Assembly (NCBI GenBank): GCA_002348005.1
Contig: DDYQ01000145.1
Coordinates: 7,380 to 15,387 of the forward strand
Direction of reading: 5' to 3'
Length of the DNA: 8,008 bases
DNA from: Desulfobacteraceae bacterium UBA2230
GTDB taxonomy: Bacteria > Desulfobacterota > Desulfobacteria > Desulfobacterales > Desulfosarcinaceae
The notes beneath the pieces were generated by a model. That model ran no database searches and had not been told where the DNA came from. It saw only the letters and a list, made by a program, of their open reading frames with translations. Numbering within the stretch: the first letter of the stretch is position 1; the number at the start of each line of letters is the position of its first letter. Of this stretch, positions 1,758 to 6,945 are shown piece after piece. Position numbers and translations under genes: made by a program.

Positions 1758-2981
1758 TCAACTGAAGGCCTCCAGGGCCTCGCGCATCAAGCGGCCGATG
1801 GGCATACGGCGCGGGCAGCGGCGCTCGGCGTCGCCGTAATCGAGCCGGGCGAGAACGGTGCGCGTTTCCTGCGGCAGGGCGTCGAAGCGCGCACGCGCCC
1901 ATTCGGGACGGCCGTAGCTTTGACAATACATGTGGCAGCGCATGATATCGCCGACCGGCACGTGCTGCGCCAGAGCCGCCTCGCAGATTGCGCCGCATCC
2001 GCCACAGTAGCGGTCGGCCGTGCACTCGGCCAGGCGGGACAGCAGTTTTTGCGAGCCGGCCGATAGCGACCGGCCGTCCGAGGCCGCCGCCGCGTTGGCC
2101 TTGAGGAGCCTGAGGCTGTCCATTTGCGAGCAGATACTGGCGATATGCGGTTGCTCCCAGACGGCTTTCAGTTTGGCCTGCGCATCGGTCAGTCCCTGTT
2201 CCATGAAATGCTTCTGCAAGTCGGGTTCCGGAGAGGCTGAATACCAGGAGGATCCGGCCTGCGTCTTCATCGCCGTCAGTCCGATGCCCGCTTCGGCGCA
2301 GGCTGCCACGGCCGCGTTCATGTGTTCCGAATTCATGTTGCGGTAGTTGTAGCTGAACATGATGCCGTCGATCCAGCCGAGCTGCGCGGCGCCCAGCAGG
2401 CACGCCTCCATGTTGCTGTGCGTGCTGAAGCCGAAGAGGCGGATCTGCTTCCGGGCCTTGGCCGCTTCGGCCCACTTGCGGGTGGCGGTGTTGAGTTCAT
2501 CGATGCCGCGGATGCCGTGTACGAAGTACAGATCGATGTATTCGGTCTGCAACCGTTCCAGCGAGCGGGCAAGCAGCTGGCTCATGCCCTCCGGATCACG
2601 GGCATCCGATTTGGTCACCAGAAAGACGCTGCCGCGATCCTGGGGATTCCTGGCGAAGTACTTGCCGATGCCGGCCTCACTGCCGCTGTGGTAGCAGTCG
2701 GCCGTATCCCAGTAGGTCACCCCCCATTGCAGCGCCTGCTTGAGCAGCAACTGGTTGGCGGCAATATCGAACATCCCGCCCAGGGCCAGTATCGAGACAT
2801 CGACGCCGCTTCGGCCGAAAGGCCGCCGGGGCACCTGGATGGCGTTGGTGTCCGCCGGCGGGTCGCTTTGGGCCAGCGTTGCGCCGAACGCCGACTGGAT
2901 CGCCGCTGACGCGCCCAGTCCTGCAACGCCGGTGAGCTGAAGAAATCGGCGCCGGGAACAGCCGTGGTGGTTGTCGTTCAT
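1758..2981 (-). CDS. Tat-exported aldo/keto reductase with C-terminal Cys cluster
   Basis: The protein has 407 residues. The N-terminus carries a Tat signal: SRRRFLQL (9-16), a hydrophobic stretch, and AFGA near residue 34 as a likely cleavage site. Residues about 51-300 are an aldo/keto reductase barrel. The catalytic tetrad is intact: D92 (WDTAD), Y97, K124 (LVTK) and H155 (YFVHG). The C-terminal part has C320-x5-C326-x2-C329-x3-C333, then C349, C353 and C389, consistent with the 4Fe-4S extension seen in one group of these reductases. Where NADPH-dependent members have a Gly-containing phosphate-binding loop, this reads ICSQMDSLRLLKAN, so cofactor use is uncertain. The start at 2981 is well placed, with AAGGAG (2988-2993) 6 bases upstream. 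It is the last gene of the four-gene operon, 31 bases after the polyferredoxin. The substrate is unknown. A periplasmic reductase fed by Fe-S electrons is my inference. Confidence 0.9.
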   Translation of the reverse strand: MNDNHHGCSRRRFLQLTGVAGLGASAAIQSAFGATLAQSDPPADTNAIQVPRRPFGRSGVDVSILALGGMFDIAANQLLLKQALQWGVTYWDTADCYHSGSEAGIGKYFARNPQDRGSVFLVTKSDARDPEGMSQLLARSLERLQTEYIDLYFVHGIRGIDELNTATRKWAEAAKARKQIRLFGFSTHSNMEACLLGAAQLGWIDGIMFSYNYRNMNSEHMNAAVAACAEAGIGLTAMKTQAGSSWYSASPEPDLQKHFMEQGLTDAQAKLKAVWEQPHIASICSQMDSLRLLKANAAAASDGRSLSAGSQKLLSRLAECTADRYCGGCGAICEAALAQHVPVGDIMRCHMYCQSYGRPEWARARFDALPQETRTVLARLDYGDAERRCPRRMPIGRLMREALEAFS

Positions 2982-3012
2982 GGCATACTCCTTAAATGTG
3001 TCCGTCTGAAGC

Positions 3013-4951: not shown

Positions 4952-5956
4952 TCAGGCTCCCGAAGCGTCTACGGGGTTCAGCCGCCGGTACTCGACCGTT
5001 CCCAGCTTTTTCTCCTGGGCCATCGAAAGATGCGGCAGGTCCTGGAACGTTTTTCCGAGTAACGTGGCGCCCAGGGCATCCACGGCCACAGGATCGGTGC
5101 CGGCGACTACGGTGTGGGTGGGCGCCAGGTCGGCCAGCGATCCGCCGGTGGGTCCGTTGCGCAGCATGCTCTTAGTGCCGTCCAGAATCACCAGGGTCGG
5201 TTTGATCAGCATGGCCAGTTCCAGGATGATGGTGTGAATTTCCTGGTGGAAGATATTGCGCCGGCCGCCGAGCAGTCCGTACCAGTTCTTCAGCGTCAGG
5301 GACGCGCCGCTGCGGTGGTGGTCCTTGACCGGCGCCAGTCCGATGATCCGGTCGGCCCTCTGCAGCGGTTCGTAAAAGACCGGCCAGTTGCGGATCAGGC
5401 GCCCCCCGGGAACCGAATAGGCATTGAAGCGCTCGACCCTGGGCAGTACGAGACGCGCACCGGCCGCGCGCGCGGCCGGGCCGATGCCGCTTAACTCGAA
5501 GCAGGCCTCCGGATCGTTGATCGGATTGTCGGCCACCAGCACCTCGGCCGCACCCGCCTCCTGGCACAATCGGATGACCCGCGCCACGGCCTCGGGGTGG
5601 CTGGTGGCGCTCAGCGCTGGAGGAGCGGCGAAGGCGGCGTTGACTTTGATCAGCACACGCTCGCCCGGCCGCACAAAAGCGGTCATGCCGCCCAGCGCCT
5701 TGACCGCTCGTTCGATGCCGCGTCCGCGGTCTGCTCCGTGGGCCAGGGCCAGCTTGCCGGCCTGGGCAGGTACGGAGTAATCAGGAAGGGGCGCGCTTTC
5801 GGCCGGAGGGGCGCCGCCCGGCGGTCCGCGCCGGTCCAGCAGGGCTATTCCGACCATTCCGACACCTAGGCTGAGCGCCGCCGAGCGCACCATCCGCCGC
5901 AGAAAATCGCGGCGCGGCAGTCCTTCTTTTTCAGGGCGGGATGCGGGTGATGTCAT
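4952..5956 (-). CDS. DUF362 family protein with Tat-like signal
   Basis: The protein has 334 residues. Near the N-terminus LPRRDFLRRM (13-22) with a hydrophobic stretch to about 40 makes a Tat-type signal or anchor, followed by a Pro/Gly/Ala-rich linker. The DUF362 domain (about 66-320) shows VLIKVN (101-106), TSHPEAVARVIRL, EVLVADNP (138-145), a KDHHRSGASLTLKNWYG block (211-227), VILDG (256-260) and GTDPVAVDALG (286-296). DUF362 proteins are widespread in anaerobes and often lie beside ferredoxins, but their reaction is not known to me. Some carry their own ferredoxin domain; this one does not, and the adjacent polyferredoxin may supply it. The ATG at 5956 overlaps the stop of the DUF6599 gene as ATGA and has GGGAGG (5964-5969) 7 bases upstream. 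Export suggests it works in the periplasm with the other operon products. Confidence 0.9.
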   Translation of the reverse strand: MTSPASRPEKEGLPRRDFLRRMVRSAALSLGVGMVGIALLDRRGPPGGAPPAESAPLPDYSVPAQAGKLALAHGADRGRGIERAVKALGGMTAFVRPGERVLIKVNAAFAAPPALSATSHPEAVARVIRLCQEAGAAEVLVADNPINDPEACFELSGIGPAARAAGARLVLPRVERFNAYSVPGGRLIRNWPVFYEPLQRADRIIGLAPVKDHHRSGASLTLKNWYGLLGGRRNIFHQEIHTIILELAMLIKPTLVILDGTKSMLRNGPTGGSLADLAPTHTVVAGTDPVAVDALGATLLGKTFQDLPHLSMAQEKKLGTVEYRRLNPVDASGA

Positions 5957-6945
5957 GGCGCCGCCTCCCGGACGCGACTCAGCATTCGGGCGGCCAGGTC
6001 GAGGGCCTGTTCGCTGTCGACGGCCTCGTGCACGCCCAGCAGAAAAGGACCATGGGTCAGCACAATTTCGTAGGCGTCCAGAATTTTGATGACGCTCGCC
6101 GCCTGCAGTCCGGCGGGTGGGTCAACCGGCTCACCACCGTATTCGATAAAGTAGGCGGCAAAAGCATCGCGTGCAGCGGCCGCTTCGGCCGGAGAGGAAC
6201 GGCGCGCAAGAAATGCCAGTGCCTCGCCCGCTGCCAGGCGGTACTGGGCCGTGTAGATCCAGTCGAGGCCTTCCAGTCCGAAGGCGTTGGCGGCGATGAG
6301 GGCAATACTGTCGGGAACACGCTCTGCATCGGGGAAGAGCTTGGTTTCAATCAAGTTCTCCTCTTGGACAGGCGTTCGGGCTACAAACGCGCGTGCCGTT
6401 TCGAGCACCGCCGCCGTCATGATATCGGAAGCATCCGCGGCGATGATCTCCACGTAATACCGGCCGTGGACCATGAACAGGCCGTTGGCCGCACGGTAGG
6501 CATCGGCGGTCAGGTCGAGCGTTTCACGTTCGGGGCGTTTCTGGACGCTGAACACCGCGAAGGCGTTGCGGCGGCGCCCCATATCGTAGAGATACCACTC
6601 CAGAAAGGCGCCGTCGGCGCCCCGCTGCGGCGCCAGGCGCCGGGTTGCGAGGGAGACGAAGCCGGCCGCGAGATAGAGTTCGGCCTTGCCGTTGATTTTA
6701 TCGGAAAGCGTCGCGGCATCGTAATTTTCGGGCGGCGTCAGGGGTTGGAGACCCAAAGCCGCGAAATCGATGGCGGCCGACTCGCCGGAACGCGCTCCGG
6801 CGAGCGCATCCGGCCGCTCCTGCCAAGCGCCCGGATCATAGCGGTGCTGGACGAGCAGCAGTGTCACCGCAATGCCCGCCAATACCAAGAGCAGCATCAG
6901 GCTCAATCGGCGCTCCGCAGTTGAGGGGTGGGTCGGGGCAGGCAT
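5953..6945 (-). CDS. DUF6599 family membrane-anchored protein
   Basis: The protein has 330 residues from the ATG at 6945. A single hydrophobic segment at about 14-32, after ERR, is an uncleaved anchor or signal, so the rest should be periplasmic. The family-like features are ENYDAATLSDKINGKAELYL (73-92), FLEWYLYDMGRRRNAFAVFS (114-133) and HGRYYVEI (160-167). No catalytic or metal-binding motif is visible and the mature part has no cysteine. The function is unknown. The ORF extends to a TTG at 7005, but that has no good Shine-Dalgarno, whereas 6945 has GGAG 5 bases upstream. It is the first gene of the operon and overlaps the DUF362 start by four bases (ATGA). It could be a structural or substrate-binding partner of the redox proteins; that is inference from context. 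Confidence 0.85.
   Translation of the reverse strand: MPAPTHPSTAERRLSLMLLLVLAGIAVTLLLVQHRYDPGAWQERPDALAGARSGESAAIDFAALGLQPLTPPENYDAATLSDKINGKAELYLAAGFVSLATRRLAPQRGADGAFLEWYLYDMGRRRNAFAVFSVQKRPERETLDLTADAYRAANGLFMVHGRYYVEIIAADASDIMTAAVLETARAFVARTPVQEENLIETKLFPDAERVPDSIALIAANAFGLEGLDWIYTAQYRLAAGEALAFLARRSSPAEAAAARDAFAAYFIEYGGEPVDPPAGLQAASVIKILDAYEIVLTHGPFLLGVHEAVDSEQALDLAARMLSRVREAAP

Follow-up and report, generated by a model that had tools for sequence, protein, structure and literature searches.

A conserved gene unit of DUF6599, exported DUF362 and a NapH-NapG polyferredoxin, often joined by an exported aldo/keto reductase, as a probable envelope electron-transfer system

What might two exported proteins, a membrane polyferredoxin and a protein of the DUF6599 family do together in a bacterial envelope? 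The question is raised by four minus-strand genes in an 8,008-nucleotide stretch of DNA from Desulfobacteraceae bacterium UBA2230 (contig DDYQ01000145.1; the whole stretch is called the window below). According to Pfam, these genes encode a DUF6599 protein (5953-6945, with an ATG at 6945; PF20244, 1.7e-48), a DUF362 protein with a twin-arginine translocation (Tat) signal (4952-5956; PF04015, 1.7e-43), a polyferredoxin of 644 amino acids that is a NapH-NapG fusion (3013-4947; Fer4_5, 9e-15, and several Fer4 families) and a Tat-signal aldo/keto reductase (AKR; 1758-2981; PF00248, Aldo_ket_red, 1.5e-19). The assignments are further backed by alignments and Planctomycetota fusions for DUF6599, by conserved residues and a profile alignment to LarA for DUF362, and by conservation counts and an alignment for AKR. 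The four proteins probably form one envelope electron-transfer system, in which a NapGH-type module would serve the exported DUF362 protein and an iron-sulfur AKR, with DUF6599 placed on the periplasmic face.

The open reading frame (ORF) coordinates and the Pfam names bore out a first-pass annotation of the window, which had described the same families in four minus-strand genes, the first two overlapping by 4 bases and the next two junctions being gaps of 4 and 31 bases. Its claim of twin-arginine signals on two of the proteins was likewise confirmed, as R15-R16 of DUF362 is found in 55/55 sequences (window included, as in all counts out of 55) and R10-R11 of AKR is invariant in 52 alignment rows. 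DUF6599 appears by eye to have a single N-terminal hydrophobic anchor followed by a periplasmic domain, and its ORF could be extended by an in-frame TTG at 7005. In NCBIfam, the NapG, NapH and AKR types and the Npun_F2552-type DUF362 were matched, every one under its curated cut-off, and the DUF6599 protein had no match.

A profile scan of genome contigs with the polyferredoxin alignment gave 328 relatives, and the best 80 were analysed with their flanks. The order DUF6599-DUF362-polyferredoxin-AKR was kept on one strand in 56/80 loci, and the first three genes were in order in 68/80. DUF6599 and DUF362 overlapped or lay no more than 50 bases apart in 68/71 measured pairs (gene starts were placed at the first possible start codon, so that measured overlaps are upper limits). 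These counts put the arrangement far outside what chance would give and mark the four genes as a conserved unit; the outcome by which the first-pass annotation would have been refuted, that the genes are seldom adjacent elsewhere, did not occur. All four genes are present as a set in Desulfobacterota, Planctomycetota (L056, L072, L078-L080), Lentisphaerae (L042), Limisphaerales (L035) and Opitutaceae (L070), so that the phyla with the conserved set are Desulfobacterota, Planctomycetota, Lentisphaerae and Verrucomicrobiota. The polyferredoxins closest to that of the window are 77-78% identical to it, and the named relatives are Desulfobacterota such as Desulfatitalea.

Twelve loci lacked the ordered first three genes, six of them with a contig edge on their upstream flank. 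The six interior exceptions were L029 and L073, where a DUF6599-DUF362 pair lies 1.5-3.6 kb upstream, L040 and L044, whose genomes carry DUF6599 elsewhere, and L036 and L057. There was no conserved fifth operon gene among 81 loci (window included), the next commonest neighbour family being present in 18. In four Planctomycetota loci (L056, L072, L078, L079), tatA and tatC are divergent from the operon and within about 500 bases of it, as identified by Pfam for L056 and by sequence clusters for the other three. In L073 and L080, tatC alone or tatA and tatC were found further from the operon. A DUF4832 gene with a weak Glyco_hydro_42 match stands between DUF362 and polyferredoxin in L056 (8555-9964) and L073 (8542-9951). 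Two genes trail the polyferredoxin-AKR pair in L029, L036, L040 and L044; in L040 they encode a pyruvoyl-dependent arginine decarboxylase and an arginase-family protein.

The link between DUF6599 and the polyferredoxin is also seen at genome level. In a sample of 297 genomes from the phylum to which the cultivated carrier Desulfosarcina widdelii (L068) belongs (polyferredoxin called at 360 bits or more, four candidates scored per genome), DUF6599 was found in 80 and the window-type polyferredoxin in 22. All 22 polyferredoxin genomes contained DUF6599, compared with 58/275 of the others; a joint phylogenetic profile was among the checks suggested in the first-pass annotation. In 21/22 carriers DUF6599 and the polyferredoxin shared a contig and were no more than about 6 kb apart, and in G238 DUF6599 was on another contig.

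DUF6599 was further followed in other ARRANGEMENTS, comprising 40 further regions, all from genomes without the full-type polyferredoxin, with partners counted on the same strand at distances up to 4.5 kb. An AKR, DUF362 or polyferredoxin partner was present in 34/40. Five regions (L142, L144, L149, L150, L157) had AKR, DUF362 and a shorter polyferredoxin, in the order DUF6599-AKR-DUF362-polyferredoxin, a further check confirming the polyferredoxin of L150; the remainder had AKR and DUF362 (2), AKR only (11), DUF362 only (15) or DUF362 and polyferredoxin (1). Nine of the DUF362 neighbours scored just 23-33 bits to the custom profile, with Pfam confirmation for that of L158 only. A Tat motif was found in 16/18 of the AKRs, one of the other two being cut at a contig end, and the AKR tails carry ferredoxin-like Cys motifs. 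DUF6599 thus turns up repeatedly next to exported AKR and DUF362 proteins.

In Planctomycetota the association extends to gene fusion. DUF6599 was matched in 51/246 genomes from the phylum of a Planctomycetota carrier (50 over the cut-off), many of the frames being about 820 amino acids long, and two such frames that were read proved to be NapH-NapG polyferredoxins with DUF6599 as the C-terminal part. By our own reading of the 120 best-scoring proteins listed, PF20244 is carried by every one except P0317 and P0350. A single-ORF fusion was present in 14/20 chosen regions (L193-L197, L199-L207; two Pfam-confirmed), a proportion that is not a frequency, as long reading frames were the main ground for choosing the 20 regions from among the 51 positive genomes. 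By protein name the carriers are Candidatus Kuenenia, Brocadia, Scalindua, Wunengus, Wujingus, Anammoxibacter and other Brocadiales, which we take to be anammox bacteria. DUF362 lies directly upstream of the fusion in L199, L201, L205 and L206 and 1.9 kb upstream in L193, and each of the 14 fusion genomes has a single DUF362 scoring 213-247 bits with the window-type profile, the next best reaching at most 155 bits. Since the NapG part of a polyferredoxin using both Sec and Tat is periplasmic according to the available text of PMC5449189, the C-terminal DUF6599 of the fusion should be periplasmic as well.

Of the 30 Cys of the polyferredoxin, 29 are kept in at least 95% of the sequences, namely C82/C86 and C268/C272 of the NapH CxxxCP motifs, nine cytoplasmic-cluster Cys at 296-331 and 16 NapG-cluster Cys at 402-618. 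A twin arginine (R355 54/55, R356 55/55) is followed by a stretch that is hydrophobic by eye, and directly precedes the last membrane segment. The layout is that of NapGH of nitrate respiration, with a NapH-type membrane part, two CxxxCP motifs, cytoplasmic clusters and a NapG-type part holding Cys for four [4Fe-4S] clusters. Unlike NapGH, however, the window type is one chain, has, in every one of 20 alignment rows, about 80 extra residues separating the last NapG cluster from the third, and scores below the curated cut-offs for NapG (62.9 vs 269 bits), MauM/NapG (59.9 vs 178.85) and NapH/MauN (54.9 vs 213.05). Its partners in the window are DUF6599, DUF362 and AKR, with no nitrate reductase. 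On these features the polyferredoxin is of NapGH layout and falls outside the curated NapG and NapH families. Another parallel is the NapH-NapG polyferredoxin of deltaproteobacterium MLMS-1, a fusion that was shown to be exported by both Sec and Tat, with its NapG part in the periplasm and its twin arginine ahead of the final membrane segment (PMC5449189). The twin-arginine region is at residues 338-359 in MLMS-1 and the RR at 355-356 here, each in its own numbering, and the portion of that work available deals with assembly only.

In AKR, D92 (55/55), Y97 (54/55), K124 (55/55) and H155 (55/55) make up the conserved catalytic tetrad of Asp, Tyr, Lys and His. The Pfam match ends at position 210 of 291, and the C-terminal part differs. 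Four Cys in this protein, C326 (55/55), C329 and C333 (54/55 each) and C389 (53/55), probably hold one [4Fe-4S] cluster. COG1453-like AKRs, which have a ferredoxin-like tail, share the tetrad and the AKR fold by sequence, and in relatives beside DUF6599 a CxxCxxCxxxC motif is joined by another Cys motif and by weak Fer4 matches; the window type differs in being Tat-exported and in keeping just four of the eight tail Cys. Among solved structures, a sequence search matched AKR best to 9yeb, an oxidoreductase. Protein-distance correlations were 0.72-0.77 within DUF6599, DUF362 and polyferredoxin and lowest (0.40) between polyferredoxin and AKR, shared ancestry being uncontrolled in these values. 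The core of the unit is DUF6599, DUF362 and polyferredoxin, and AKR is a frequent extra. The first-pass annotation had proposed one transmembrane electron-transfer system with the reductase foremost and DUF362 "perhaps" involved. A single unit containing such an electron-transfer part is upheld by order, co-occurrence and fusions; the emphasis on AKR needs correcting, with DUF362 moved to the steadier core and AKR retained as a frequent addition with a predicted [4Fe-4S] cluster.

For DUF362, a clue to function came from LarA. K211, H213, K223 and H237 are each present in 55/55 sequences. DUF362 and DUF2088 belong to the same Pfam clan (CL0471), and the accessible part of PMC11770544 reports DUF362 as a LarA outgroup. 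A wide DUF362 profile aligned with a wide LarA profile (92%, single-pair E 5.8e-7, 177 columns), placing H213 on LarA H174 and K223 on K184, both gap-free, and H237 on H200. In LarA, according to the text available, R75, K184 and H200 contact the nickel-pincer nucleotide (NPN), and D72, H108, H174 and K298 are catalytic (PMC7583248). K184 is the lysine for covalent NPN and H200 a nickel ligand. The profile alignment gave no DUF362 equivalent for D72, R75 or H108 (K298 was left out). The wide profiles include intermediates such as L103 and L101, and only these profiles aligned with LarA; narrow-profile hhalign of the window type gave nothing (0.8%), and 0/64 window-type members matched Lar_N at E up to 10. 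Among other DUF362 proteins, Lar_N was matched by L101 (50.1 bits) and L103 (24.5, cut-off 23.3), with L104 just below (22.7). As controls, DUF6599 scored 0.3% against the LarA profile and AKR 78% (E 1.7e-5); the AKR match covered 26 columns of shared Tat signal only, so the single-pair E-values are generous. Searches of solved structures gave nothing useful either for DUF362 (best E 0.065, and E of 1 or worse with Tat signals in another search) or for DUF6599 (best E 0.27). By the profile alignment DUF362 is a remote relative of LarA in which residues of the cofactor site are conserved, the two sharing the H-x9-K pattern and a downstream H, which supports a LarA-like pocket and not membership of LarA. 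The window type is further set apart from the NPN racemases of the LarA superfamily by Tat export and linkage to a redox conduit.

LarC co-occurrence was considered as a test of NPN use and dropped. Among 49 genomes of the 80 loci, LarC was present in 35, LarE over the cut-off in 40 and at least one of them in 43. LarC was, however, present in 252/297 genomes of the Desulfosarcina phylum in any case (21/22 polyferredoxin carriers vs 231/275 non-carriers), so that LarC or LarE presence neither proves nor excludes NPN. Five Planctomycetota genomes (L056, L057, L073, L078, L079) had LarE over the cut-off and no LarC match, possibly reflecting a diverged LarC; the Lar_N search, which covered 28 of the 49 genomes, included four of these five and matched in all four.

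At the level of sequence, the composition and order of the unit, the fusion, the co-occurrence and the Tat, cluster and catalytic motifs are established. In the envelope system proposed here, the membrane and cytoplasmic iron-sulfur part of the polyferredoxin would connect to the quinone pool or to a cytoplasmic donor. Sec would first insert the membrane part and Tat would then export the NapG part, which would place four [4Fe-4S] clusters in the periplasm. DUF6599, a separate anchored protein here and a C-terminal domain in anammox bacteria, would lie on the periplasmic face of the NapG part and probably dock partners. DUF362 and the iron-sulfur AKR would take up their cofactors on folding in the cytoplasm and be exported by Tat; once in the periplasm they would act on a carbonyl or hydroxyl compound there and trade electrons with the polyferredoxin. 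Electrons would most likely pass from menaquinol outward.

Several observations weigh against this proposal. The quinol-to-periplasm direction is carried over by analogy from NapGH. A two-electron hydride AKR and one-electron clusters would need a go-between cofactor, and none was found. AKR is out of place in 12/68 core loci; in the genomes of eight of these 12, a search at E 1e-60 found a full-length AKR elsewhere in five, a partial one in one and none in two. No AKR stands beside any of the 14 fusions, and DUF362 is near the fusion in 5/14 loci only, with none found in the stretch analysed at the other nine. No partner was found in 6/40 DUF6599 regions, and the draft genome of L057 (G034) has the polyferredoxin and AKRs and no DUF6599.

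The same proteins could work with electrons flowing the other way, DUF362 and/or AKR being periplasmic dehydrogenases that oxidise a hydroxy compound and feed the quinone pool, which is judged somewhat unlikely. AKRs catalyse both directions, which counts for such a flow. So does the hydride that LarA relatives take from 2-hydroxy acids, as the available text of PMC7583248 has it, together with the three LarA active-site residues that DUF362 keeps. On the other side, NapGH modules described so far are quinol dehydrogenases according to the part of PMC5449189 available, and no linked transporter or cytochrome accompanies the genes, nor does a conserved fifth gene. An MsrPQ-like role outside respiration, in which the conduit powers DUF362 (and AKR) to repair or mature proteins or cofactors of the periplasm by reduction, seems improbable. 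It would suit the small number of genes, the lack of a conserved transporter and the broad spread over anaerobes of differing metabolism, including anammox genera; the unit is, however, linked to no maturation gene and to no family of target proteins, and pairs of DUF6599 with this AKR type exist without a nearby polyferredoxin.

Similarly doubtful is the suggestion that AKR is a passenger, with its own bound nucleotide and another task, and that DUF6599, DUF362 and polyferredoxin cooperate without it. The displaced AKRs, their absence beside the fusions and the weakest distance correlation with the polyferredoxin would be expected in that case, but AKR follows the polyferredoxin in 56/80 loci with its cluster Cys kept, and the same families recur in another arrangement in L142, L144, L149, L150 and L157.

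Within the proposed envelope system, a more specific role for DUF362 can be put forward as a speculation that is probably wrong. The Tat-exported protein might hold a pincer-type cofactor, NPN or a relative, bound covalently to K223 and with its metal ligated by H237, and be wired through DUF6599 and the NapH-NapG polyferredoxin to the quinone pool instead of racemising. If this is so, the protein would be a nickel-pincer oxidoreductase of the periplasm linked to the respiratory chain, and DUF362 would become a candidate for the further NPN users whose existence PMC11796402 infers from genomes that have larB, larC and larE and lack larA. Among 14 control genomes, those of Synechococcus elongatus and Haloferax volcanii had LarC and DUF362 and no Lar_N match. 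A strict LarC-DUF362 rule is contradicted by Bacteroides ihuae, which has DUF362 without LarC, and by Corynebacterium glutamicum and Methanocaldococcus jannaschii, which have LarC and neither Lar_N nor DUF362.

A literature search retrieved no paper on this gene set, none mentioning DUF6599 and none joining DUF362 with a polyferredoxin; for papers combining any three of the four subjects NapH, aldo keto reductase, Tat signal and polyferredoxin, PMC5449189 alone came up. In other settings, DUF362 has been reported with CBM9 or with nested ferredoxin domains, as far as the available portions of PMC5742341 and PMC7955657 go. The NapGH-type module is the known part, and the partners DUF6599, DUF362 and AKR are what is new here. 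The results provide a first functional setting for DUF6599 and Tat-exported DUF362 proteins, which would belong with a membrane iron-sulfur conduit in relatives of sulfate reducers, anammox bacteria and other lineages. They also make it testable whether DUF362 proteins are among the NPN users.

The four genes are presumably co-transcribed. Promoter-like matches (2 vs a shuffle mean of 0.9) and terminator-like matches (3 vs 4.4) were not clearly above shuffles, so the argument for co-transcription is drawn from spacing and conservation. A check of the window for a plasmid origin gave no near match. Downstream, the plus-strand gene converging on the operon ends at 1725; the convergent pair at 870-1725 on the plus strand encodes, by Pfam, a Phage_holin_4_2 membrane protein and a DUF1232-DnaJ protein. 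A minus-strand frame of 253 amino acids (78-839) has a Cys-rich stretch and no Pfam or NCBIfam match. Upstream of DUF6599, on the same strand, lies a response regulator-GGDEF gene (7098-8006; Pfam). The same family is found up to about 530 bases upstream in L001-L005, L010 and L052, suggesting that it may be a lineage-specific neighbour or a regulator.

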